DNA from: Terriglobus roseus | GTDB lineage: Bacteria > Acidobacteriota > Terriglobia > Terriglobales > Acidobacteriaceae | Assembly: GCF_900102185.1 (NCBI RefSeq) | Contig: NZ_LT629690.1 | Location: 1,240,001 to 1,304,000 of the forward strand | DNA: 64,000 bases | Direction: 5' to 3' | Shown: positions 12,807 through 63,291 of the stretch, in pieces | Layout: each line of letters starts with the position of its first letter | How positions within the stretch are numbered: position 1 is the first letter of the stretch | Position numbers and translations under genes: made by a program | Notes under the pieces: generated by a model | Database searches by the model: none | Told to the model about the DNA's origin: nothing | The model's input: only the letters and a program-made list of their open reading frames with translations

Positions 12807-13619
12807 TTACTTAGATGCCGAATCGCCTTGCAGCCTGCGCCCGAAAACCATGGCTAACGTAACGCCCACCCTGGCGGAATGGTTGGTGACGCCGAAACGC
12901 ATGCCTCCATCGATACCGACTGAATCTCGGAGCTTTCGGTAGAAGCCGGTGAAAACGTATGTTCCGGGAGGAGTGTTGGATTGACCTTTGTTCTGTCCGA
13001 AGACTTCAGAATAAAGTCGCGTGTTTTCGTTGAGGTGATAGCTGACCGCCGCAGACTGCTGACCACCATAGGCGCATCCCGTCGCGTCCTGGCAATCGGA
13101 TTGAACTAGCGAGCCGTTGAGCATCACATCGACGATGCCGCCCTTGCCGTAATGATGGTTCAAGAGCATCGTGACCTGCTGGCCATATCCCTGCAAAGCC
13201 TGGTCCGATGCGGTCGGCAACTCGGCTTCGTATTGCAGAGCCAAGCCTGGCGCCGCATGTCCATTGCGTTCCTTTTCGAGTACGACCTTGGCGCCGATCT
13301 GAATCGTGCCGACGCCTCTTCCTTTTTCGTCTTCGTCCTTACGATATGCGTAAGGCGACCACCCAAAGTCAACGCGCAGACGCTCTAAAGGCACATACGT
13401 CGTCAGCAGACCTAAAGTGTCTTGTCGACCAGGAACGGCGTGCGGGTAGGTATCAAAACCAACTTCCACTTGCAAAACACCCTTGCCCTGAATCGCCGCG
13501 CTGTTCGCCACCGTCGGGCGCGTCGGGTTTAAGTCCAATGCTTGAGCTTGCGATCGGATCGAGAGGAGCGCCACGGTGAAGGTGGCTGCAATAGCGCAAG
13601 GATTGAGCGAAGACCACAT
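12807..13619 (-). CDS. Exported outer-membrane beta-barrel-like protein
   Basis: 270 residues from an ATG at 13619 with GGAG upstream (frame open to 13676). It has a signal peptide (ATFTVALLSIRSQAQA) followed by alternating beta-strand sequence, for example VLQVEVGFDTYPHAV, LERLRVDFGWSPYAYR and a last strand ending VTLAMVFGRR. This resembles the transporter/meta-pathway-type outer-membrane proteins of soil bacteria. The substrate is unknown. It is likely in one transcript with the DUF1345 gene. Confidence 0.75.
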   Translation of the reverse strand: MWSSLNPCAIAATFTVALLSIRSQAQALDLNPTRPTVANSAAIQGKGVLQVEVGFDTYPHAVPGRQDTLGLLTTYVPLERLRVDFGWSPYAYRKDEDEKGRGVGTIQIGAKVVLEKERNGHAAPGLALQYEAELPTASDQALQGYGQQVTMLLNHHYGKGGIVDVMLNGSLVQSDCQDATGCAYGGQQSAAVSYHLNENTRLYSEVFGQNKGQSNTPPGTYVFTGFYRKLRDSVGIDGGMRFGVTNHSARVGVTLAMVFGRRLQGDSASK

Positions 13620-14581
13620 ACAAACTCCGACTACGGATAGACGTAAAGGGTGGGTGCCGGATCTGGCGGAGAACATCGTTGGGCAGTGTCCCGCGAGTTT
13701 CGCGGAGAATGAGATCGGATCATCCGTAGATGATGGCGCACCGCTCGTGCCGCGACATGTCGACAGAATCGTTGTGGACGATGATTGTTTCTCGGCGCAT
13801 TAAGGACTCGCATGCGAATCGGTCATCGCCATTCTCCCCAAAGCGCGCACCTTCTATTCTTTTAGGGCATTCAGGTATCGGCACATTTCCCGGCGCTCGG
13901 ACAAGCGTTGTGCCTCCCTTCGGAGAGCCCTGGTTCGCAGTTGCAAGCATGTGGCAGCTCCAACCAGGACCAACGTAAGAGCAGCGATCCAAGGCGATAG
14001 GATGGGCACACTTCCTCCCCAGCGCGTGATGATGTGAACGCGCCACTGGTTGGATGCACGTGACCCGTCTGCGAGTCACTAAGCATTGACGGAATTTGCA
14101 AATCGGGAAGTCCCTCTCTATTGAGCGATAGAAGTTCCGTAGAAGCTTGGGACGACGAATTCGTCTCGTGTTTCCGCGACGGACGGAAATAGTCCGCACC
14201 AAAGCTCTTCTGGTGACGAGAACCGACAACGCGGCGCCGGACAGGTCGGGGCCACACAGAAAGACAGTTGCGTCAGGCCGCTCTCTTCGCGGTCTTTTTT
14301 GCGGCGGTCTCTTTCGGTTTCATCGCCCTAGGCTCCTTGGGAGCGACGACGGCTTCGCCAGACACATCGACCGGTGTAGCCGTGCACGGGAACGATGGAG
14401 GGCGTGATGCTAAGGAACGGGAGACGACACGTCTATCCATCTGAGTTCGTGCGGGAGGGGGTGCAGTGCAGGCCATTACGGCTGACACATGAGCCAGTGC
14501 TTGACACAGACGAATAGCATCTGCAACCTGCTTGTTCTGGGTTGAACAATGGTGTTACTAACTAAGGGGCGGAGAAGTGTG
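13620..14581. other. Long stretch without a recognised gene
   Basis: Several frames of 60-170 codons overlap on both strands, but none shows a family, signal peptide or ribosome binding site I trust. The only candidate noted separately is the Lys/Ala-rich frame at 14273-14488. Confidence 0.4.
14273..14488 (-). CDS. Possible small basic protein
   Basis: A 71-codon frame ends in VAPKEPRAMKPKETAAKKTA and RAA, a Lys/Ala/Pro tail like histone-H1-type bacterial proteins. The N-terminal half is unremarkable, and a later start at the MDRRVV codon is possible. Weak support. Confidence 0.25.
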   Translation of the reverse strand: MSAVMACTAPPPARTQMDRRVVSRSLASRPPSFPCTATPVDVSGEAVVAPKEPRAMKPKETAAKKTAKRAA

Positions 14582-14767
14582 ATGTCTGAAGTTCATGTCA
14601 AAATGGCCGGATACGATGCAGTATTCGAACAGGCGGTTGATGGAAGTTGGAGAGGAACGGTACCAGACCTCCCGGCGATCCTGACAAGCGGTCCCACTCT
14701 CGGCGAGGTCAAGGCCAACATGCAGGAAACAATCGGACTTTGGCTGGAGAATGCGAAGCGATCCTAA
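14582..14767 (+). CDS. HicB-like antitoxin domain protein, orphan
   Basis: 61 residues from an ATG at 14582 with GGCGGAG upstream (frame open to 14549). The sequence YDAVFEQAVDGSWRGTVPDL, then TLGEVKANMQETIGLWLE is the HicB-type partial RNase H fold. HicB proteins usually carry a C-terminal DNA-binding segment and neutralise the mRNA interferase HicA. Here the C-terminal segment is missing and no HicA-like gene (about 60-80 residues with a G.SH motif) is visible on either side, so it is an orphan. Confidence 0.75.
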   Translation: MSEVHVKMAGYDAVFEQAVDGSWRGTVPDLPAILTSGPTLGEVKANMQETIGLWLENAKRS

Positions 14768-14843
14768 TGCGTACGCTTCAAGTACCTCTAGGAAATGAAT
14801 CGTCAATCGGATGTCGACAAAGAGCAGGGCTCTAAGAGAATCG

Positions 14844-15098
14844 CTACGGCATTCTGTACTGGAGTGCGCCGCTTGTAACGGGGTGATTTGGGATCGCGAT
14901 CCCCGCAATGCGTAACTGATCCACATGTTCCTTACTCAAGGAAGGAGGCAGGTAAACTCCGGAGAATGTGTATAGGCCAGTGGTGTTCGCGTCGTAATGA
15001 AGCGCTGCATGAGGCGCTTGGATATAGAGGAAGTCACGTCGTTTCAAAACATGCCATTTCTGGGCAGGCTGATTAAGAAGTAAGCTCCTGCAAATCAC
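14844..15098 (-). CDS. Small hypothetical protein
   Basis: 84 codons. The sequence includes LKRRDFLYIQAPHAALHYDA, TGLYTFSGVYLPPSLSKEHV and DQLRIAGIAIPNHP, which looks protein-like but is not recognised. No strong ribosome binding site is seen at the first ATG. A later internal start is possible. Confidence 0.4.
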   Translation of the reverse strand: MICRSLLLNQPAQKWHVLKRRDFLYIQAPHAALHYDANTTGLYTFSGVYLPPSLSKEHVDQLRIAGIAIPNHPVTSGALQYRMP

Positions 15099-15320
15099 CA
15101 GTCCTGAATGGAAGGTGCGGCAGGGCGAGACCTATAGGCACTCACAAACGCCAATTTCTCGCTTCAAGTGCCGGCAGAGAGTGGATTTTATTGATTCCCT
15201 AACGAATGCCTAAGGTTGACCGTTTATCGGAAGTCGCCACGAGTTGGCCACCGCATCTGAGGATAGGTTTCGAGACGCCTCAACATTCAGGAGTCATAGG
15301 ATTCTGAAATGAATCGAGCT

Positions 15321-16181
15321 TTAATTGGGTGAAGGCTTCTCTACAGAATCGACAACAATAGTCTGCACGGGCGCCTTACCGCGCAACAACTTCAATCCCA
15401 TCTGCTCGGCTAAAGCCTGGTCCGGCGGTAGACCAAAATCGATATCTGCAGTTGGTAATTCTGAACTGGCGTTGAAATGCACCGTAAAGTTGTACGTCCC
15501 GTTGAGATTCGTCTGATCCGCGACCGGAGCCTTTAGGTAGTAGCTCATGAGACCCGCGAACTGGCTCATCTTTGCACCGTGCCCGGTGACTACGAGGTCC
15601 GTGATGGGCCCACCCGAAGAGATCCCAGAATTGTCGGATTCCTCTGCCGCCGAGATTAAATTGGCTGCACTTTTCACACTCGTAAGAAAGTAGGTCAGCC
15701 CCGGCCGTTCTTCTATGTGATATTGCAGGCGAAATCTGTTCTGCAGCAACTGCAGAAGCATACGCCGTTTGTCTGCTGTTGCTTCTTCATCGGGCAAGCT
15801 AGCAAGCCGGCGGCTGACCTCTTCATCCGAACTTGCATGTACGCCGAAGTTCTCTCGGTCCAGCCAGTCTGGAACTCCCGCAAGCTGGTATCTGAAGTTG
15901 ACGCCAAATGCCTCGGCAATCAGCTGACTCAGCCGCATGACGGCATCAAGGCGACCCACATGACTAGGATTGTTCAGATGCTGCCTGGCCGGAGCACTGG
16001 GAGCCAACTCATGGATGCTGGCTACATCAAACTTGAGCGCGATATCTTCATGTCTTTCGTCTGGATACCCGGCGGCTTGCTCGCTTGTCGGTGGAGTATT
16101 CGGCTCGTATAGAGAGCAGCCGATATCATCGCAAAAATGATGAAAGTTCGGCACTTCGTTGGCATGAGGGACACTCCACAA
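15321..16181 (-). CDS. TIGR03435 family protein
   Basis: 286 residues with the order of motifs typical of this acidobacterial soil-associated family: FDVASIHELAP, LSQLIAEAFGVNFRYQLAG, PDWLDRENFGVHA, MLLQLLQNRFRLQYHIEERP, TYFLTSVKSAANL, FAGLMSYYLKAPVADQTNLN with GTYNFTV, and the ending KAPVQTIVVDSVEKPSPN. These proteins are common and highly expanded in Acidobacteria, usually exported; here no clear signal peptide is visible in the first 40 residues, so the true N-terminus may differ. Function unknown. Confidence 0.93.
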   Translation of the reverse strand: MWSVPHANEVPNFHHFCDDIGCSLYEPNTPPTSEQAAGYPDERHEDIALKFDVASIHELAPSAPARQHLNNPSHVGRLDAVMRLSQLIAEAFGVNFRYQLAGVPDWLDRENFGVHASSDEEVSRRLASLPDEEATADKRRMLLQLLQNRFRLQYHIEERPGLTYFLTSVKSAANLISAAEESDNSGISSGGPITDLVVTGHGAKMSQFAGLMSYYLKAPVADQTNLNGTYNFTVHFNASSELPTADIDFGLPPDQALAEQMGLKLLRGKAPVQTIVVDSVEKPSPN

Positions 16182-51395: not shown

Positions 51396-51781
51396 TTTAT
51401 GAGCTGGATCGGGAGGGGTTCGAAGCCTTCATGCCATTAGTAGATATTTACGCGCGTCACCACCAAAGCAGTTACGGACCTTGGCTGGGAATGATACATC
51501 GGTTTCTCGCCACAAAAGCACTGGCAGCATCTTTCTCAACGCCCTTCTCCGGCGACTGCAACCGCGCCTTTGCGTTCCCGGACTGTCAGTCAGAACAAAG
51601 CCAAAGCCCCCACTGAAAAAATGGTTCGCCGGAAATGTATGGCGAGACCTTTGCCGAACTCCGGCAGAAGTTGCACGCCTGATTAGTCCTGTGAAGTCGG
51701 CATTTGGTAAGTAATCCAGCGCCATTGAAATCGGAGCGGGATTCAGAGCCAGATTCTGACCCTCCATCCCGCCCCCCGAGG
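51396..51781. other. Intergenic, IS-flanking DNA
   Basis: No gene seen. It includes the inverted 21-bp element at 51681-51701 that matches 32934-32954. Confidence 0.45.
51681..51701 (-). repeat. 21-bp element shared with 32934-32954 (inverted)
   Basis: The reverse complement reads GCCGACTTCACAGGACTAAT plus one base, one change from the other copy. It lies about 80 bases from the transposase stop. Confidence 0.5.
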
Positions 51782-52341
51782 TCACGGACGAAGCCCTGGT
51801 CGAAACCGCAGGTCGTTGACATCGAACTCGCCCACTTCCAGGTTGCAGAAGTAGATTTTGTAGAAGTGGTCTTCAACCTTTTCCAGTCCGATGTCTTCGC
51901 CCCGGAAGACCTCGCTGATGAAGACCCTGCTCTTATGCCAGCTGATATCGCCTGCATCGTTCACCCGTCGCGTCTGGAAATGAGCGGGATAGACATAGGC
52001 CTTTGTGTAGCGTGGTAAAAGCCGCGTGCTTGGAGCGTAGAGGCTTCCCGGCGTCTCGTGATTAAGCGCTTCATGAGGTCGCTCGTAGTTGTAGACGCGT
52101 CGAAATTCATCAAATCGCTTCTGTTGCGCACGGATTGTCTTGGCGGAAGGGCTTGTGGTGTCCTGCTTCAGCGTCCGGTGCATGCGTTCGTGTCGACCGT
52201 TTTGCTGCGGCTTACCCGGCTGAATACGTTCATGAACGATACCGAGTCGTTGCCACTCCAGTGAGAGCCGGGAGAGGCCAAGGATACCGGTGCCGGAGAA
52301 CGGCGCGCCGTTGTCGGTACGGATGCGCTCAGGAACGCATC
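51782..52341 (-). mobile_element. IS481-type transposase, C-terminal fragment
   Basis: The minus strand encodes an rve-core transposase from PERIRTDNGAPFSGTGILGL through WQRLGIVHERIQPGKPQQNG, RHERMHRTLKQDTTSPSA, FDEFRRVYNYERPHEALNHE to a stop at 51782. The second catalytic Asp (TDNG) and the Glu (NGRHERMH) are present. The N-terminal helix-turn-helix and first Asp are missing because the fragment ends abruptly at about 52340 against parB coding sequence. No terminal inverted repeats could be defined. Confidence 0.88.
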
Positions 52342-53553
52342 ACCGCCAGTCATGCCAACGCGATTGCTCGTCTACCCGAAGAACATCAGGCCGATGCCTT
52401 TCATAACTGCTGGCGTAAGGACTGGCAGGACAACGAAGCGCATCTCTTACCCGTGCGGCATCTCGACGCATGGATCGCCGACAATCTCTTTCTCGATCTT
52501 GCCGACGCCCCGTTTGATCGTGAAGACATAACCCTCAATGTGGAAGCGGGTGCCTGTCTCACTTGCCCGAAACGCAGCGGCTACAACACCAGTCTCTTCG
52601 CGGACGTATCCGGCGACCAATGCCTCGATAGCGCGTGCTATCAGTCGAAGGTCACGGCCCACATCGCGGTGGTGTTGGTGGATCGTCCCGGTCTCGTGCA
52701 GATCGAAACCTCGTGGCGTCCTCCACAGCAACAGGTGCCGGGTGCATTGAACAAGAACGCCTATCGCATGCTCGATCTTCCGGATAACCCGGATGCGGAT
52801 TTGCCCTGCAGCACGACGCGTACCGCGCTCATCGTCTACGGGCGTGGCATTGGGAACACGGTCATGGTCTGCACCGACAACGACTGTCCGGCGCATGATC
52901 CCGCAACCGCTGCCCGTATCGGGAAAGAACGGGCCGAACATCCTGCGCCGGTGGCCGCGCCTGCTGAGGACGATGAGACGGAAGAAGAACGGCAGGCAAG
53001 GGAAGAAGAGAACGAACGGCAAAAGCGGGAGTACGACGCAGAAGCGGAACGGCGGCGTGTGGAACGGGAAGAAGCCTTTGAACGAGAACAGAAAGAATAT
53101 GAGGCAGAAGCAAAACGTCGCGAGGAAGCCTATCAAGCGCGCCTTGTTACGTTGGAACGAATCATCGAACACGCGCCGCTGGTCTTCAATTCGGATCAGT
53201 TACGTCTCTTGATTAAAATTCTCCTTCACGATGCGCCGTATGGCTTGTTTGAGGAGGCTGCGGAATACTTTACGTCGGACGATGAAGATCACGGCAAGAC
53301 CGACGACGAACTTCTCACCGAAGCGCTGAGCGTGTGTGTCGATGAAAAGCTTCCCGCGTTCCTGTTGCGGCTGCTTCTCTCCGAACATCGTTCGTTTCCG
53401 TTAGGCGAACAGACAGATTGGTTGGAGAAAGCCGCTGCTCTCTTCGCCCCTGTGCCAGAGGAGCCCGCGCGTTCTTCGAAGAAGAAAGAGAAGGGAAGCA
53501 AGAAATTAACAGCATCCCGTCTCCGGAAGTCCGCATCCGATCAGGCAGCATAG
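52329..53553 (+). pseudogene. parB: Plasmid-type ParB partition protein, 5' truncated
   Basis: From the junction the plus strand encodes QERITASHANAIARLPEEHQ, WIADNLFLDLADAPFDRE, EAGACLTCPKRSGYNTSLFA and DQCLDSACYQSKV, typical of large ParB/RepB-like proteins of plasmids and integrative elements, with CxxC zinc-like pairs. A long Glu/Arg coiled segment (residues after EDDETEEERQ) and a Lys-rich end follow. The N-terminal ParB nuclease/CTPase and HTH start are missing, replaced by the transposase fragment. The reading frame continues into the IS by chance. Probably the residue of an integrated element. Confidence 0.88.
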
Positions 53554-53904
53554 AGTGTGACAGAATTTTTCCGTATTGGTCATCCCGGCAAATGTCCGGG
53601 ATGGCCTTTTCTTTGCCTGCGCGGGGCGCCGGGAGAACCCTCTTCGGTTTCTCCCGGACTCTCATCCCGCGAACCCCCGCCCTTCCAACGTCCTTTTGGT
53701 ACGAGAGCCTGAGGACGGAAAGATCAGGAAATTCACACATGAACTGGCAATGTGGCGGCTGGTAGGCCTGCGTCATCTTCATCGAGATGGGACACTAGAT
53801 CCGACCTAAAGATCATTTGGGTCTTCTGGGTGCCCTGTTGGTTGGCTACGCAGCAACGAAGGATCGAAGAAGTGTTCGCAGTTCGAATTGGGTGCAGACA
53901 GGGT
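53554..53904. other. Intergenic with terminator
   Basis: Apart from the terminator at 53578-53610 no gene or repeat is evident. Confidence 0.5.
53578..53610 (+). terminator. Rho-independent terminator after parB remnant
   Basis: GGTCATCCCGG pairs with CCGGGATGGCC (one G-U) over a 7-base loop and is followed by TTTTCTTT, 24 bases after the parB stop. Confidence 0.8.
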
Positions 53905-55170: not shown

Positions 55171-56226
55171 TTGAATATCGTATTTTCTTCACGTGGACGA
55201 GGCAGGGGACACGCCACACGAGACCTCGCGATTCTAAGAGAGCTTCGGATGATTGATCCGAGCATCACGTCATGCTTTCTATCTTACGAAGCCGGTGCCA
55301 AGGAACTACGCGAAGCAGGCGAATCGACTTTTGATCTCGGTCTGCCAGAAAGAAATCCCTTCTCGGAGACCGTTGTCCGAACAGCGCAATTACTGGATAG
55401 ACTCCGTCCATCAATCGTGATTGCGCAAGAAGAACCCGCCGCCCTCATTGCTGCGCGAATCTTTCGTATTCCTGCGATTTTTTCGACGCATTGGTTTCCT
55501 CTCAAAGAGGATCCTTACAGTCATCATTTGTCCTATGCTGACAAGATCCTCTTTATGGAACGGGAGGGCTTGTTTATAGAGCCACAGGAAGTCGTTGGAC
55601 GAGTAACCTACACTGGACCTATCGTCCGTCAAGTCCGTCCGACAACTGGGGGTTCGAAAGCTGTTCGTCGTCACTTGGGACTAAAGGCTACCGACCCACT
55701 AATTCTTGTGCTCCCGGGAAGCCCCCCTGAGGATAGGGAGCCAATCGCTCAGCTCATCCTAGATGCCTTTGACTGTCTACCTGAACCCCAAAAGGCTCTG
55801 GTGTGGGTGTCGCCAAGAGATATTGAGAAAGTGACAGCGTCGGCCGGTCCACGAAGGAATGTTCACGTCATGAGCAAAGTCTCCAATCTCGATGACGTAA
55901 TCATTGCTAGCAATCTGGTGATCACCAAGGGAACATACAATCTGACAAACGAGATTCAGCTCCTGGGGCGCCCTTCGATTGCTTTGACACATAGATACAA
56001 CCCGATCGACGACTACTTTGTACGGCACAGTCCTCAAGGTCACCTGGTCGATGTCCGGGAATGCAATTTGCAGGAGTTCGTCCGTTTACTTTCGGCTTCT
56101 CTTCTCCAGAATCCAGTCTTTGAAGCCACGTCGATCCCTCGAAGTGCGTTTGGCGGTGTCTCCCGTGCTGCTGCCGAAATCTACAAGTTCTTACGTCAAA
56201 CGCCTCCCCAAACTACTCCGAAATGA
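55171..56226 (+). CDS. GT-B glycosyltransferase, MurG/GT28-like
   Basis: 351 residues from a TTG at 55171. It opens with NIVFSSRGRGRGHATRDLAI (cf. the G.GRG..GH loop of MurG/GT28 enzymes), an N-terminal half ending IPAIFSTHWFPLKEDPY, and a C-terminal half with LILVLPGSPPEDREPIAQLI, VSNLDDVIIASNLVITKGTY and NEIQLLGRPSIAL, the nucleotide-sugar site. It is divergent from the GT11-like gene with 96 bases between and could act on the same acceptor. Confidence 0.78.
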   Translation: MNIVFSSRGRGRGHATRDLAILRELRMIDPSITSCFLSYEAGAKELREAGESTFDLGLPERNPFSETVVRTAQLLDRLRPSIVIAQEEPAALIAARIFRIPAIFSTHWFPLKEDPYSHHLSYADKILFMEREGLFIEPQEVVGRVTYTGPIVRQVRPTTGGSKAVRRHLGLKATDPLILVLPGSPPEDREPIAQLILDAFDCLPEPQKALVWVSPRDIEKVTASAGPRRNVHVMSKVSNLDDVIIASNLVITKGTYNLTNEIQLLGRPSIALTHRYNPIDDYFVRHSPQGHLVDVRECNLQEFVRLLSASLLQNPVFEATSIPRSAFGGVSRAAAEIYKFLRQTPPQTTPK

Positions 56227-56306: not shown

Positions 56307-57062
56307 CTATTGGGAAGGCTGCGCGCTTTCTGACAGGGCCGTGAGCCACTCCGCCAGTTTGCGCGAGATTACAACTGAATGAGCGCGTTTGGTTGTAACC
56401 TTCGCTTTGTCCGCGTACTCCTGGATAATCGGCTGGTGTTGCGGGGTACGATCCGACGGAACGCGAAGATCTACCTGTTCATTGAGCAACACGGCTACGA
56501 TGGTCAGGGCGTGCGCTTCCCCCATCCACTGCGGGACAGACAAAGAGCGATCAGATTGAATCTGGTCACGCTTCTCGTCAAGGAGTTTGGCCGCATCCTG
56601 GGGCTCAAGCTGTCCTGATGAAATGCGTCCGAGTAGCGGCTGCGCAAATAGGAGACCGTCGCGCAATCCCTGTCGCATCGCATAGAGATAGGCAATCCCG
56701 TCCGGGGTTCCAAAGGTGCTCCCGTCCGCGAAAATCGCACCGATGATGCCTCCCTCGCATTGCGATACAGCGTCGGGAATTTTGATCGATTGGGCTTTGC
56801 CTGGATCGACAACAACATCAGGATTGAAGTTCATAAGGGCATCTTGATTCTTTTCGAATACCTGCGGGTGTCCCGAAGCAACTGGTGGACATTCGATCCG
56901 AACTCGATAGGCTTCTAAGGGGATTGCCGTCGAATTGGTAACTTGAAGCTCCCAGCCGGAAGTCGTTTGAACCCTACTCTCTGTGGGCCGTTTCTCTTGC
57001 GCATTGGCAGTCAAGAGAATAGGCACCACTAGAGCAATACTGGACAGCAATCGACAAGTCAT
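56307..57062 (-). CDS. Exported protein, unknown
   Basis: 251 residues with a signal peptide (MTCRLLSSIALVVPILLTAN, cleavage near NAQ). The mature part begins with a beta domain (GWELQVTNSTAIPLEAYRVR, IECPPVASG; PDVVVDPGKAQSIKIPD) and continues helical (SGQLEPQDAAKLLDEKRDQI). No known family. It is 15 bases downstream of the Ig-like exported gene on the same strand, so the two are probably co-transcribed. Confidence 0.6.
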   Translation of the reverse strand: MTCRLLSSIALVVPILLTANAQEKRPTESRVQTTSGWELQVTNSTAIPLEAYRVRIECPPVASGHPQVFEKNQDALMNFNPDVVVDPGKAQSIKIPDAVSQCEGGIIGAIFADGSTFGTPDGIAYLYAMRQGLRDGLLFAQPLLGRISSGQLEPQDAAKLLDEKRDQIQSDRSLSVPQWMGEAHALTIVAVLLNEQVDLRVPSDRTPQHQPIIQEYADKAKVTTKRAHSVVISRKLAEWLTALSESAQPSQ

Positions 57063-58234: not shown

Positions 58235-59152
58235 ATGTCCTGGAAGATGGTGCAATTACTGCTGAGCGCGGTGATGATACTTTTGGGTGCCGCAATGCCG
58301 GTTTATGCCAGTGATTGCGTAGCGCCCACTAAGGCCGAGCTTGACGCTGCACAGGCCTACTTTATTAACAGGCAGATAGTTCCGGTGACTGTGACCATCG
58401 CAACTGAAGCGCTCGAGCCGAACGACGAGTGCTTCTGGAAGATACGATTCTATTCGCGCTCATCTTCTCAATCGGCGACGTGGTTTCTATCTCCAGATCA
58501 TCGATATCTGTTGCCCGCACTGTACGACTTGTCTTCAAAGCCCACGTTGCAAACGTGGAAAAAGAACGCCCGGCTGATGGATCTCCTTAGTTCAGGAAAT
58601 CCTCCGATGGTAGGATCTGCAACTGCGCCGGTAGAGATCGTCATGTTTTCAGACTTCGAGTGTCCATACTGTCGGCAGCTTGAGAAGACAATGAAGGAAG
58701 AGATATTACCGCGATACGGGAACAAAATCAGAATTGTGTTCCGGCAATTTCCCCTTCAAACCCATAGTTGGGCGCACGAGGCGGCCCTTGTGACGAGTTG
58801 CATTGCCCGTGATGACGTTCCGACGTTCTGGCAGGTTAAGGAATTCATTTTCTCGAATCAAGAATCCATTACCGAAAGCAATCTTGTGCCGCTGATTGCC
58901 CCTCTGCTCAAGCAACGGCCTAACCTAGAACCTGAGGCCCTTGTTAGGTGTTCCCGTAGCCAAGAGACGCAAAGGTTGGTGGATCGGGATATGGAACTCG
59001 GCACGCAAAACGGCGTATACAGTACGCCCACCCTATTCATTAATGGCGTGTTAATGCGGGGAACGGGCGAAATTCAGAGACTGAACCCTCTAATCGAGGC
59101 GATGATCGCTCAGACCTCTAATGCAGCTACACAGGGCAGTAATCCTCATTGA
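58235..59152 (+). CDS. Exported DsbA-like thiol oxidoreductase
   Basis: 305 residues, ATG with AGAGG upstream. Signal peptide (VQLLLSAVMILLGAAMPVYA), an extra N-terminal domain of about 100 residues with one Cys pair candidate, then a thioredoxin fold beginning GSATAPVEIVMFSDFECPYC with the CPYC active site (C143, C146), FRQFPLQTHSWAHEAALVTS and the cis-Pro loop STPTLFINGVLMRG. This is a periplasmic disulfide oxidase/isomerase-like protein. As first gene of an operon ending in a Cys-rich peptide, it may form the peptide's disulfides. Confidence 0.88.
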   Translation: MSWKMVQLLLSAVMILLGAAMPVYASDCVAPTKAELDAAQAYFINRQIVPVTVTIATEALEPNDECFWKIRFYSRSSSQSATWFLSPDHRYLLPALYDLSSKPTLQTWKKNARLMDLLSSGNPPMVGSATAPVEIVMFSDFECPYCRQLEKTMKEEILPRYGNKIRIVFRQFPLQTHSWAHEAALVTSCIARDDVPTFWQVKEFIFSNQESITESNLVPLIAPLLKQRPNLEPEALVRCSRSQETQRLVDRDMELGTQNGVYSTPTLFINGVLMRGTGEIQRLNPLIEAMIAQTSNAATQGSNPH

Positions 59153-59185
59153 GTCTAGAAGTGCCGATACAGGAGTATAGAAACC

Positions 59186-60346
59186 ATGCTATTCAACCGG
59201 ACATACGGAATAACGAACGGCGTTATTTGCGGTTTCGGGACGATCGCAATTCTCTGGTCGTCTTTGGCGAACTGTCAGACTCTTCATGCGGGCCCCCCCT
59301 CAAGTACGATGTCCTTGCCTATGTCGGGTCCAGAAAATGCTACACGGCCGACTTACGAGCATGGGAAGCTTATGAGATTTGTTCGTTCTTCCAGCAATGG
59401 ATGGGCAAATAACATTTCGATTACAGATGCAGTCACTCAAAAAACAACATCGCTTCGATTCTGGCCCGCCAAAGTCCAAAACATGACGATCGTTGCCGTT
59501 TCCTATGGAGAAGACCAAAAGTTGTCGGTATCTGCGCACACCATGACTCCAACAGGACCGCAGTCATATCTATACACCGTGGATCAGGATGGAACAGCAA
59601 TTCAGACGACGCCCACTGAAGATTACCTCGCTACGAGGATCGTGAGGATGGCCGATGGTTCGACATGGACACTGGGAATCGCCCATGCACTTCAAGAATC
59701 CACATCGAAACAATACAAAAACTACGATGCGTTCCGACACTATGCTGCTAATGGACAACTCCTGGAACACCTGTGGCCGCGGTGGGGAGACGACATTGAT
59801 ATTGTGACGAGCAGTACCCGCGAAGATGGTTCTAGGGTATTGATTGCGCACTCAAAGACTGGGATGCCGGACAAAACATTCGGGCCACCGTTCTTCGGTC
59901 CAACTTCTGGCTTTGCTCGACCAATGAGCTTGTTCATGGTGAACAACGGCGACAACGTCGTGATTTATGACGGCGTTAACTCGAAGATACATCTGTGGCA
60001 ATCGAAGTTAAAGAAACTCACAAGTTGGAAAATTAGCGAGAGACTTTCCGGGATGAGCGTGAACGGGTTGGCTCTGCTTTCAAATGGAACAATTCTTGCG
60101 AGTCGAACTGGAGTTAGTGCGAATTCCAATGCTAGCGCAGGGGATGCGCACGCGGGCTTGTTTTCGCTTAAAGTGCTGAGCAATAGCTTTGCCACTTGGA
60201 GTCCAGTAAAAGTCGAGGGACGCGGGATGGCTACAACGGGGGACTTTCGGGTTCTCGGAAGCGATAACGGAAAGTTCGTATATGTTGATGCGGCGTTGTT
60301 TCCTCATCAGGCCGCTTGGGGATCAATTGAATCGACCCAACCGTAG
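59186..60346 (+). CDS. Exported protein, unknown (possible beta-propeller)
   Basis: 386 residues with a signal peptide (GVICGFGTIAILWSSLANCQ). The mature part alternates short beta strands with Gly-containing turns, for example YLYTVDQDGTAIQTT, TREDGSRVLIAHSKTGM, MVNNGDNVVIYDGVNSKIHL and LALLSNGTILASRTG, suggesting a propeller-like or repeated-beta fold. AGGAGT precedes the ATG. It is 33 bases after the DsbA-like gene and 8 bases before the hydroxylase gene. Role in the cluster unknown. Confidence 0.6.
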   Translation: MLFNRTYGITNGVICGFGTIAILWSSLANCQTLHAGPPSSTMSLPMSGPENATRPTYEHGKLMRFVRSSSNGWANNISITDAVTQKTTSLRFWPAKVQNMTIVAVSYGEDQKLSVSAHTMTPTGPQSYLYTVDQDGTAIQTTPTEDYLATRIVRMADGSTWTLGIAHALQESTSKQYKNYDAFRHYAANGQLLEHLWPRWGDDIDIVTSSTREDGSRVLIAHSKTGMPDKTFGPPFFGPTSGFARPMSLFMVNNGDNVVIYDGVNSKIHLWQSKLKKLTSWKISERLSGMSVNGLALLSNGTILASRTGVSANSNASAGDAHAGLFSLKVLSNSFATWSPVKVEGRGMATTGDFRVLGSDNGKFVYVDAALFPHQAAWGSIESTQP

Positions 60347-60354
60347 GACATGAA

Positions 60355-62076
60355 GTGCCTAAGCGATTGATGTTTCAGTCGGAGCTTCAAAGGACAGATG
60401 TGATAGATCTACTCCCAGGTCGGTGTAATGAGGGGAAATTGCCCTTCGATTTCCTGATAGGTCGTGGCGCAACGCACTTGCGACACGCCGGTAGTCGTTC
60501 GCTGTTAGATCATCTCGATGGAACGCGCCGATTGCTAGAAGTTTGGAAGCAAGACTTGCATCTTCAGCATGCAGGTTTGTTTCACAGCGTCTATTCTACT
60601 GAAAGCTATCATCACAGCCTGATCCCGCTGAGCGAACGAGACACAATAAGAGAGTTGATCGGGGAGCAGGCCGAACGATTAGCTTATCTATTCTGCGTTG
60701 TTCCACGAAGCCAATATCTAAGCTTGGCGCGCTTTGGACCGCGAGAAGCCAAGCAGGTACGCCTTCATGATACAAATTTCGCCGGTGATGTAGTAGTTGG
60801 CGTGGACGACGTACGCGATCTAGTCACGCTATATCTAGCCAACATCGTTGAGCAACCGAATCCAGAGACTCCCCGGTTCGGAAATTGGTTACAAGATGTC
60901 AGTCAGGCGGCCGCCGCTCTCCGCTCGTTTGGAGCCGGTGATCGGCGAGACCCTCTCCCATTTGTTAGGGAACTGGATCGACCGGAATGTTGTGAGTTTC
61001 GGTACCAGTACCTTCGTGGTTGTGACGCACTCTCCGACGGGCTAATAGATGAAGCAATCGATCACATCGAGAAGGCTTTGGTCATCTGTGACTGGCTACC
61101 GGATCCCTGGCTGATTTTGGCCATAGCGCAAGCTGGCAGCAACGGAGAGGAGTGGCACGTGTCCAGCCGAAAAGGATTCGATCTACTGAATCGATGGGGC
61201 ACTGCATGGGACCGGAACATCTCCCATCGATTGTGGGATGAATTTGGCGCAACTCTTACATCTCGAGATGGTCTTGCTTCGATGAGACCGAAGCTGATCG
61301 ATCAACACATGGTGGGGCGTAAACGGTTGGTGCACAATTGCGGAGAAGGACCATGGCCAGGCAGGTTCATGGACTACCTGCAGAGTATGTCCTCCAATGG
61401 GGACCAACAAATGTCCGGTTGGTATCCATCGTTGCCGAGCAAACCGATTTACGAGTCACGAGCGTTATCGATTTCAAGGTTGCTTGAGGATAATTTCCCA
61501 AAAATCAAAAGCGAAGTAGAAGAACTATCGGGTCTAAGTTATCACCGAGAAGCAGAGCCGATTCCTCGAAAGGGAGATTGGGATGTATTTTTCCTGTACG
61601 AACAGGGACGCAGGAATGATCTGAATTGCTCTCAAGTTCCCACGATCGCGAAGATCATCGACAAACATCCCGCCGTACGGCGGGAATCGGGGCTGGTCTA
61701 TATCTCTCGACTAGGTGCAAATTCAAATGTAGCTCCACATAATGGTCCCTTAAATTCTCGTTTGCGGCTGCATCTGGCGTTGAGGGTGCCCGCAGGGGAT
61801 TGTGGTATGAGAGTTGGCAACGAAACACTCAGGTGGAGCGAAGGAGAATGCATCGTTTTCGATGACTTTGTGGAACACGAGGTATGGAATAGGACAGATC
61901 AAGAACGGCTCGTACTTTTAATGGATCTCTGGCATCCAGAGCTTACAGATACAGAGCGCGAGGCGATTGATATTCTCCAACGATTTGGAAATAAGCGCGG
62001 TTTCGCGATTGCAAAGTATTGGGAGAGAAACCGCGCCGCGTGCACTAATGGCAAAGCACCTCTAGAGGAAGACTAG
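60355..62076 (+). CDS. HD-like domain fused to aspartyl/asparaginyl beta-hydroxylase
   Basis: 573 residues, GTG start eight bases after the previous stop. The N-terminal part (about 30-115) reads GATHLRHAGSRSLLDHLDGT, RRLLEVWKQDLHLQHAGLFH and SVYSTESYHHSLI, an HD-like fold of the DUF6817 type. A middle region has no recognised domain. The C-terminal 160 residues are an AspH-type Fe(II)/2-oxoglutarate domain: iron ligands His 462 (VAPHNGPLNSRLRLHLALR) and His 508 (FDDFVEHEVWN), and Arg residues for 2-oxoglutarate. Such enzymes hydroxylate the beta-carbon of Asp/Asn in peptides. The Asp-rich peptide downstream is the obvious candidate substrate (inference). Confidence 0.85.
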   Translation: MPKRLMFQSELQRTDVIDLLPGRCNEGKLPFDFLIGRGATHLRHAGSRSLLDHLDGTRRLLEVWKQDLHLQHAGLFHSVYSTESYHHSLIPLSERDTIRELIGEQAERLAYLFCVVPRSQYLSLARFGPREAKQVRLHDTNFAGDVVVGVDDVRDLVTLYLANIVEQPNPETPRFGNWLQDVSQAAAALRSFGAGDRRDPLPFVRELDRPECCEFRYQYLRGCDALSDGLIDEAIDHIEKALVICDWLPDPWLILAIAQAGSNGEEWHVSSRKGFDLLNRWGTAWDRNISHRLWDEFGATLTSRDGLASMRPKLIDQHMVGRKRLVHNCGEGPWPGRFMDYLQSMSSNGDQQMSGWYPSLPSKPIYESRALSISRLLEDNFPKIKSEVEELSGLSYHREAEPIPRKGDWDVFFLYEQGRRNDLNCSQVPTIAKIIDKHPAVRRESGLVYISRLGANSNVAPHNGPLNSRLRLHLALRVPAGDCGMRVGNETLRWSEGECIVFDDFVEHEVWNRTDQERLVLLMDLWHPELTDTEREAIDILQRFGNKRGFAIAKYWERNRAACTNGKAPLEED

Positions 62077-62124
62077 AAGATAATCGTCCAGCTTCATGTG
62101 AAACTCGAGAATTTCGGAGAGGCA

Positions 62125-63048
62125 ATGAATATGAATCGTAGAAATTTCTTATGGAGTTCGTTGAGTACTGCGTTTCTTGCAGGGATGAACTCGCCGCAGG
62201 CCTCAAGAAGCCGCATGTCCCCAGTTAACGATTCGAGCCCGGAAGTTTACTCGTTCGTGAAACCATCGGATCCGGGCTTCGAGCGGCTAGTCAATGCGTC
62301 CTTTCCAGGCATACTAGAACTGCCTGAGTGGCAGACTCATCGACGCAAACTTGTTCTTGTCCGGAATGGAACGAGCTTCGATATTTATGCTCACTCAGTC
62401 ACCTGGTCAACAAACCACGATCTTGCACAGAAAAAAATCTACCGACGAACCTATATGTCACGCCCCGCACTGAATGACAAAGCCCTTGGCAGCGGCTGTA
62501 GACCGCTCTTGAAGCCTGGCGAAAGCGGAATCGTGACCCCCTTGGTTTTCTGTTCAAGTGGTCGATATATGGACAACGGCTTTAAGCTTGCTCTGGAGAA
62601 AATTGGAGATCGACACTCTGATGGTCAAGCGTTCTTGGCGGCAACTGCCGAGGACGAAGTGAATTGGAGCACAGACGGGGCAGTTTTCGATAACATCGCG
62701 ATTGCTCCTCCCAATTCAAGAGGCCTTCTACATCTACTCGCACGTTTTGATGGAGAAAGGGAGGCAGCACAAGAAGCTCTTCTCGCCATTCAGAATGAAA
62801 CTGACCCGTTTCATGCAATTACAGCATCACGGGGCTCCTCTAAGTCGTTCCAACATGCGTCAAGGTCAACATCGGCAACCTTCCAAAGAGCGAAGCGTGA
62901 GATGAGCGTAATGGTCAAAGTCGGCTTGGAGCAATTGGGAAGTGAAGCACTCCAACTGAAGCTCAGCAATCTACTCTCACGCCCCAAACTATACCCGCAA
63001 AGTTCTGCTGGGCTGTTTTCCGCTGATGGAATTTCCGTGGTTATCTAA
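62125..63048 (+). CDS. Tat-exported protein, unknown
   Basis: 307 residues from an ATG at 62125 with GGAGAGG upstream; the frame is open to 62098. Twin-arginine signal NRRNFLWSSLSTAFLAG. The mature part has HRRKLVLVRNGTSFDIYAHS, RPLLKPGESGIVTPLVF and helical C-terminal half, with several His and Cys. No family recognised. It lies between the hydroxylase (48 bases) and the peptide gene (15 bases). Being Tat-dependent it would fold or load a cofactor in the cytoplasm; it may process, carry or protect the peptide. Confidence 0.6.
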   Translation: MNMNRRNFLWSSLSTAFLAGMNSPQASRSRMSPVNDSSPEVYSFVKPSDPGFERLVNASFPGILELPEWQTHRRKLVLVRNGTSFDIYAHSVTWSTNHDLAQKKIYRRTYMSRPALNDKALGSGCRPLLKPGESGIVTPLVFCSSGRYMDNGFKLALEKIGDRHSDGQAFLAATAEDEVNWSTDGAVFDNIAIAPPNSRGLLHLLARFDGEREAAQEALLAIQNETDPFHAITASRGSSKSFQHASRSTSATFQRAKREMSVMVKVGLEQLGSEALQLKLSNLLSRPKLYPQSSAGLFSADGISVVI

Positions 63049-63063
63049 ACGAAAGGAAGAGAT

Positions 63064-63291
63064 ATGTCAGAGCCCCGCCTGAACAACGCCGTTACTACTA
63101 AGGATGCCGTAGCTATTCCAGAGACCACCCGCGAACCCATTAAGTTCGCCGAGAACTTAACAGAAGTGAACGATAATTTTTTCTTTGAATGCGGTGGCGA
63201 TGGGGGAGGGGACGGGGGCGACTACGGAGATGGAGATTGGGGAGATGGCTGTGTCCCCGGATGGGACCCGGGTTGTGGTACGTGGTGCTGA
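63064..63291 (+). CDS. RiPP-like precursor peptide, Asp/Gly/Cys-rich
   Basis: 75 residues, ATG with GGAAGAG upstream, 15 bases after the previous gene. Residues 1-42 look like a leader (MSEPRLNNAVTTKDAVAIPE, acidic, ending NDNFFFE). Residues 43-75 are a distinct core: four Cys, many Gly, seven Asp, three Trp, in patterns such as GGDGGGDGGDYGDGDWGDG followed by C, PGWDPGCGTWC. There is no signal peptide. Composition, size and position at the end of an operon with a beta-hydroxylase and a disulfide-forming protein fit a ribosomally made, post-translationally modified peptide. Gly-rich low complexity by chance is the alternative. Confidence 0.7.
   Translation: MSEPRLNNAVTTKDAVAIPETTREPIKFAENLTEVNDNFFFECGGDGGGDGGDYGDGDWGDGCVPGWDPGCGTWC

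Follow-up and report, generated by a model that had tools for sequence, protein, structure and literature searches.

The human hydroxylase AspH (family PF05118) works in the endoplasmic reticulum on epidermal growth factor-like domains. A graspetide cluster encodes SmaO and SmaX, which make aminomalonate from Asp (Kim et al. 2025, JACS 147:20909, as quoted in PMC13097080). In the PhnY/PhnZ and TmpA/TmpB pairs, as summarized in PMC8177086, a 2-oxoglutarate (2OG)-dependent hydroxylase acts first and an HD-domain oxygenase then cleaves the bond beside the new hydroxyl. Other enzymes, described in passages of PMC13060819 and PMC12636437, are the MNIO and alphaKG-HExxH types, which hydroxylate Asp in ribosomally synthesized and post-translationally modified peptides (RiPPs) to give beta-hydroxy-Asp. 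Here we describe a five-gene, plus-strand operon of Terriglobus roseus that encodes a fusion of a DUF6817 domain with an AspH domain and ends in a Gly-Asp-rich peptide of 75 residues. The operon lies in a window of 64,000 bases, positions 1240001-1304000 of a genome that is a single contig of 4,851,966 bases.

This locus resembles each of the described systems in part. The catalytic domain of human AspH aligns with the window enzyme, key residues included, but the latter has no apparent signal sequence and carries an HD-like N-terminal half. Going by the quoted description, SmaO/SmaX comprise an Asp hydroxylase and a further oxygenase that modify Asp of a ribosomal peptide one after the other, the scheme we postulate here; those are two proteins whereas the window has one chain, and the likeness is one of described reactions. 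An ATP-grasp protein, the criterion for a graspetide, does not appear in the Pfam results for the five operon genes and four upstream genes. The PhnY/PhnZ and TmpA/TmpB pairs share the pairing of a 2OG hydroxylase with an HD-type partner; however, in the cited account they are separate proteins acting on phosphonates, unlike the fused chain of the window, and the PhnZ-type ligands read H...HD...H...H...D, whereas DUF6817 lacks the HD Asp. The MNIO and alphaKG-HExxH enzymes likewise yield beta-hydroxy-Asp in ribosomal peptides, but they are described as other enzyme families, none of which is found among the Pfam matches of the operon. The initial annotation held that no known RiPP family has this combination of genes, a statement that must be qualified because a pair converting Asp to hydroxy-Asp and then aminomalonate in a graspetide cluster is published.

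An AspH fusion enzyme and its candidate peptide substrate

The operon and its main features, in window coordinates, are as follows.

58235-59152, plus strand: DsbA/thioredoxin-like protein with CPYC, probably exported (hydrophobic start, by eye; Thioredoxin_4 at E 4.9e-25 in Pfam, BdbD 3eu3 at E 1e-14 among solved structures)
59186-60346, plus strand: gene 2, 386 residues, probably exported (by eye), with no assigned family
60355-62076, plus strand: fusion enzyme of 573 residues, DUF6817 (HD-like), middle region and AspH
60454-60708, plus strand: DUF6817 domain, residues 34-118 of the fusion (PF20680, E 1.9e-27)
61486-61938, plus strand: Asp_Arg_Hydrox (AspH) domain, residues 378-528 of the fusion (PF05118, E 3.6e-44)
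62125-63048, plus strand: gene 4, 307 residues, twin-arginine start (by eye), without a Pfam match at E <= 1
63064-63291, plus strand: peptide of 75 residues, candidate substrate
63187-63288, plus strand: Gly-Asp-rich tail, peptide residues 42-75, with 7 Asp, 14 Gly, 4 Cys and 3 Trp

The open reading frame (ORF) list bears out the five genes, their intergenic gaps of 33, 8, 48 and 15 bases, and a last gene whose 75-residue product has a tail rich in Asp, Gly, Trp and Cys. We propose that the fusion is a bifunctional peptide oxidase, in which the AspH half hydroxylates Asp of the peptide tail and the HD-like half adds a second oxidative step, a reading whose chances we judge to be evenly balanced. 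Its two parts differ in strength. The fusion most likely hydroxylates Asp in the tail, and we infer the peptide to be its substrate; the second HD-domain step, perhaps with aminomalonate as its product, we infer weakly and by analogy.

In the first step, the AspH half would beta-hydroxylate Asp in the Gly-Asp tail of the peptide, as the AspH domain, the gene order and the linkage of Gly-Asp tracts to such enzymes suggest. In the second, the HD-like DUF6817 half would act oxidatively on the hydroxylated residue, a step proposed because DUF6817 partners oxygenases and because tandem pairs are known (an HD oxygenase after a 2OG hydroxylase, and the aminomalonate pair). Our leading guess is a carbon-carbon cleavage that would give aminomalonate, with PhnY/PhnZ, TmpA/TmpB and SmaO/SmaX as the nearest analogies. 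The tail would thereby become polyanionic and able to bind metal. Given the DsbA-like gene and the four Cys, a third step is plausible, in which the peptide would be exported and disulfides form among these Cys outside the cytoplasm with help from the DsbA-like protein.

The initial annotation recognized an AspH-type hydroxylase with His462 and His508, both of which we confirm, but missed the N-terminal DUF6817 half. In Pfam the protein is a fusion of that half with a complete AspH half, the latter covering the whole Asp_Arg_Hydrox profile (1-157 of 157) at 150.8 bits against a cut-off of 22.6. The AspH half aligns to the human catalytic domain (5apa, E 2.5e-35), and H462, H473, H508 and R518 fall in stretches conserved with it; we take H462 and H508 to be the Fe-binding His, and H473 and R518 to bind 2OG. 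As far as the tools show, the 573-residue protein is a genuine enzyme fusion and not an artefact, and the proposed substrate is plausible.

A second full fusion (603 residues, L202:8236-10047, minus strand) was found via PF20680 in G531, a genome of the same family and another genus. It matches the window fusion at 36.0% identity over 559 aligned residues, with 48% in the AspH part (3e-65), 35% in DUF6817 (4e-20) and 30% in the middle (4e-4). The four residues named above are kept, and 14 of 15 inspected positions are identical, the exception being D155. PF20680 is present in five of 396 genomes of the phylum, including that of the window, and a search of 200 relatives gave no full-length homologue of the fusion but itself, with seven AspH-only, eight DUF6817-only and four weak places. 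Single-sequence patterns of AspH had no match in the genome contigs.

Alternatively, the substrate of the fusion could be a lipid, another small molecule or, as in nonribosomal peptide synthetase (NRPS) clusters, an amino acid bound to a carrier, and its neighbourhood would then be accidental. The AspH half does match the models of the lipid hydroxylases OlsC and LpxO, far below their cut-offs, and AspH proteins occur in NRPS clusters. However, the solved structures that it matches strongly, 11 in number, are without exception aspartyl/asparaginyl beta-hydroxylases, and the ORFs listed at 24-76 kb include none of NRPS size (the longest has 1025 residues). We regard this alternative as quite improbable.

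The HD-like half and its oxygenase partners

No paper naming DUF6817 was found in the literature searched. Most likely, judging from structure prediction, DUF6817 has an HD-like fold whose HD Asp is usually Ser. The AlphaFold model of residues 1-224, built from 36 sequences, has a pLDDT of 81.6 and a pTM of 0.80. When it was searched with Foldseek, ranks 1-32 of the 50 listed matches were, judging by their titles, HD proteins, among them small alarmone hydrolases and Rel/SpoT. The lead matches (RelH/SAH/MESH1) have probability 1.0 and a best E of 0.015, with none at or below 0.001; PhnZ (4mln) and TmpB follow at E 0.37 and 0.39. VIA-align superposes the model on 7qoe with Z 12.6 (root-mean-square deviation 4.3, 163 aligned) and on PhnZ 4n6w with Z 7.8 (deviation 4.2, 126 aligned), values to be read with care, as Z under about 13 may reflect only a common arrangement in mostly helical models. 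Among PDB sequences the DUF6817 profile finds 4yf1 (Lmo0812) first, at E 0.0079, and then Rel proteins at 0.15-0.24; the AGLLHD stretch of 4yf1 aligns against AGlfHS of DUF6817. Single members also match Pfam HD models below the cut-off (HD_4 at 0.0012 and 1.7e-5, HD at 0.018), and in viruses HD_4 is hit at E <= 0.01 by five of the 19 members compared.

Across 39 DUF6817 members, the residues that never vary are H44, H53, H77, Y80, T82, R95, I102, G103, A106 and E107, and S78 is almost as constant. The H...HD...D motif of the HD superfamily is thus present only in part, with H53 and H77 kept and positions 77-78 reading HS, and the invariant or nearly invariant columns hold no His after H77. 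We do not file DUF6817 with the HD diiron oxygenases (MIOX/PhnZ/TmpB), because its ligand set is incomplete. The same Ser at 78, which leaves the PhnZ-type diiron set short, counts against a second oxidative step and opens the way to a simpler explanation: hydroxylation alone, with the HD-like half a non-catalytic domain that binds substrate or metal, and a beta-hydroxy-Asp tail as the product. The invariant H44, H53, H77 and E107 could still hold one metal, and the AspH family linked to Gly-Asp tracts (below) has no DUF6817 by eye in its listed ORFs. On the other hand, ten invariant residues over 39 members are rather what one expects of an active site than of a scaffold, and we consider hydroxylation alone possible but distinctly less probable than the bifunctional oxidase.

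DUF6817 often partners Fe/2OG oxygenases in viruses, in one RiPP locus and in NRPS loci. We grouped the best 80 of 519 viral relatives into 35 clusters at 80%. In 19 of these, DUF6817 is part of a long ORF whose other half, on either side of it, is oxygenase-like, and 17 of the 19 representatives match 2OG-FeII_Oxy_3 (11 match Oxy_4). For the stand-alone viral members, 15 upstream genes were taken from the other 16 clusters; ten match 2OG-FeII_Oxy_3, and another encodes a clamp loader. Four cyanophage loci differ in what precedes DUF6817: a gene resembling 2OG oxygenases in L102 (by Pfam, narrowly under the cut-off) and L105 (judged by eye alone), a cupin-like gene in L104, and a gene that is no oxygenase in L103. 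DUF6817 occurs on more than 500 viral contigs, L106-L185 among them, and is often joined to a 2OG oxygenase, which may come first or second. The corresponding PHROGs family bears the name DNA endonuclease V, seemingly a misannotation that has been propagated.

At 44 DUF6817 loci on genome contigs, an oxygenase was noticed nearby in at least 20, mostly by eye. These include PhyH-like genes (L071, L072, L077, L082, L084, L087, L089 and L093, and also L068, L088, L092 and L096), TauD-like oxygenases together with NRPS genes (L066, L070, L075, L076, L083 and L085) and, in L069 and L080, 2OG oxygenase genes that overlap DUF6817 (below the cut-off in L080). L080 is labelled Thaumarchaeota and has clamp-, clamp-loader- and polymerase-like genes (by eye), as in a T4-type phage. 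L069:3186-10489, on a Stenotrophomonas metagenome-assembled contig, is an apparent cyclophane-type RiPP locus that holds DUF6817, two 2OG oxygenases and a C39 exporter. Its radical SAM enzyme is closest to the cyclophane-forming types YhhB and XyeB (below the cut-off), and a small precursor-like ORF there ends GGDGGWVKVGPVEPALQA. A 63-residue protein upstream of a Caballeronia oxygenase was considered as a RiPP precursor and set aside, since it does not resemble one. No AspH relative was detected in the examined flanks of the 44 loci (blastp, E <= 1e-3).

Plasmids gave 19 DUF6817 records, of which 11 annotated regions were read. An annotated 2OG oxygenase overlaps DUF6817 in three (L186, L188 and L196), and in two (L187 and L193) DUF6817 lies between NRPS genes with a TauD oxygenase. 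The latter, from a Klebsiella and a Vibrio coralliilyticus plasmid, are alike in having DUF6817 between two NRPS genes and then TauD, and an IS5-type transposase lies just upstream of the Klebsiella cluster. The L192 region has a cyclic-peptide exporter. Loci without such a partner count against the proposed reading: no oxygenase was noticed by eye at the other 24 of the 44 contig loci, many of them planctomycetes, and six of the 11 plasmid regions (L189-L192, L194 and L195) have no annotated 2OG or TauD oxygenase. In a twelfth, unannotated plasmid locus (L054) none was seen by eye.

Gly-Asp tracts at AspH loci

The peptide has six Gly-Asp within 40 residues, and we used this density as the criterion for a tract. 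By this measure the peptide is the only tract in the 64-kb window; L202 has two and L017, L019, L020 and L203 one each. Tracts are absent from the 44 DUF6817 contig loci (686 kb), 29 loci of chance peptide matches (L023-L051, 90 kb), the 80 viral loci (415 kb), L009-L016 and L002-L008. PF05118 was found in 31 of the 396 genomes of the phylum, and in five of the 30 loci examined, L219, L223, L224, L225 and the window itself (L212), a tract lies no more than about 1.5 kb away, whereas the 180 control tiles, which total 587,299 bp and stem in part from these genomes, contain none. The difference has a Fisher p of 4.4e-5, or 3.1e-4 with the window left out, kinship being ignored in both. In L223-L225 the tract and the AspH domain share one ORF, and in L219 the tract protein ends just ahead of the AspH ORF. 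The claim that the hydroxylase acts on the tail Asp thus gains indirect support from tracts beside or inside other AspH genes, and AspH-type enzymes may serve to modify Asp in tails of the Gly-Asp type.

Several points weigh against extending this to the T. roseus peptide. The threshold was fixed after the peptide, with its six Gly-Asp, had been seen. L017, L019, L020, L219 and L223-L225 form one AspH family (at least 74.6% identical), which is far from the window AspH (30-42% over 57-119 residues). Of the 14 AspH loci with the highest scores (L205-L218), the window's own is alone in having a tract at 1.5 kb or less, and at the G531 AspH locus (L207) the tracts are farther away than that. Independent lineages in which a tract and AspH are linked number about three, namely this seven-locus family, G531 and the window, and the last two share the fusion. 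The seven-locus family spans several acidobacterial families, joined to or beside (Gly-Asp)n and poly-Asp proteins, some of which are lipoprotein-like by eye. The L203 Gly-Asp protein (13215-15584, peptidase-like by eye) was given no weight, as it is 3 kb from the oxygenase-DUF6817 fusion there and on the opposite strand.

On the minus strand of G531, the fusion is followed by genes for an epimerase and two glycosyltransferases and then by one for a tyrosinase-domain protein of 966 residues that contains 50 Gly-Asp, 45 of them Ser-Gly-Asp; order and spacing suggest that this run is an operon. A second Gly-Asp protein (38 Gly-Asp) is encoded divergently. No relative of the DsbA-like protein, gene 2, the twin-arginine protein or the peptide was detected in the 20 kb examined (blastp, E <= 1); G531 conserves the fusion enzyme and not the five-gene operon. 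This setting, the long and partly lipoprotein-like (by eye) proteins that carry tracts elsewhere, and a glycosyltransferase-like gene at window 55171-56226 (below the cut-off) would fit an enzyme that targets secreted or surface proteins (the products of gene 2, gene 4 or another), the peptide being an unrelated metal-binding protein and not RiPP-like. We think this unlikely, since the sole tract of the 64 kb is that of the peptide, which begins 15 bases after gene 4.

The peptide, its neighbours and their setting

The peptide has Cys at 43, 63, 71 and 75 and tail Asp at 46, 50, 53, 56, 58, 61 and 68, with no signal sequence by eye. That its 75 codons are not a gene is very improbable, in our view. 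The frame is the only stop-free one of six, AAAGGAAGAG, which is ribosome-binding-like, directly precedes the ATG, the spacing is that of the operon, and Gly and Asp codons are varied (for Gly, GGA 5, GGT 3, GGC 3 and GGG 3) with no tandem DNA array in the gene. The frame also fits the codon usage of the operon best (0.11 bits per codon, the next 0.034), although this margin is small over 75 codons and no credible homologue supports the gene.

A search of 300 relatives gave a peptide match at E <= 1 in 105 genomes, its own included. We read 29 non-self loci (L023-L051) by eye and judged them chance matches, most being other frames or long unrelated ORFs; L041 has no clear frame, and the best match (E 3.7e-6) lies within a 691-residue open frame. 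The end of one ORF in L046, ...YFYYCGGDCGGGAVVPGLPGGG, resembles the border of leader and tail by eye (E 0.063), probably by chance. Plasmids gave nothing credible. As the peptide has no credible homologue in the 300 relatives, its conservation together with the enzyme cannot be shown, which also counts against it as the substrate. With respect to RiPPs in general, a clustered enzyme is present, and Pfam recognized no peptidase or exporter in the five genes; beyond these, the surroundings were inspected only by eye.

The initial annotation had described an exported CPYC protein and a Tat protein. The thioredoxin-family assignment of the first, which carries ...FECPYCRQ..., holds, while its export is read from a hydrophobic start by eye. 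Gene 4 begins MNMNRRNFLW, so the twin-arginine start is seen, again by eye, in a protein of no Pfam family; its ORF runs from a GTG (62098-63048), and the ATG at 62125 yields the 48-base gap. Gene 4 matches only itself in the 396 genomes, has no match in plasmids at E <= 0.1, and shows no similarity to the secreted protein at 56307-57062. The single Pfam match of gene 2 (PapG_C, E 1.1e-4) is taken for chance, although its 22.5 bits exceed the cut-off of 20, and in 200 relatives gene 2 finds, besides itself, one other place (E 9.9e-4), which is not credible.

Promoter and terminator scans gave signals no higher than shuffled sequence. The G+C content is 0.50-0.52 from about 54 kb onward and 0.53-0.59 before it in the window, and because of this drop the low-G+C block that holds the operon may have been acquired from elsewhere. 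Transposase-like fragments (by eye) lie at 51429-53809, just upstream of this block.

More broadly, HD-AspH fusions could form an undescribed class that turns Asp of Gly-Asp tracts into beta-hydroxy-Asp and then malonate-type residues, with mini-peptides and surface proteins as substrates, and DUF6817 could be what generally carries out the second step alongside 2OG oxygenases, in phages as well as in RiPP and NRPS systems; we advance this tentatively and with considerable doubt. What bacterial AspH proteins act on is suggested by the Gly-Asp tracts next to or within some of their genes, and the pairing with oxygenases, together with the HD-like model, gives DUF6817 a testable role. If the second step yields aminomalonate, one enzyme would install clustered, strongly metal-binding residues in a peptide, and HD-AspH fusions, if the proposal is true, would give bacteria an Asp-based counterpart of gamma-carboxyglutamate.

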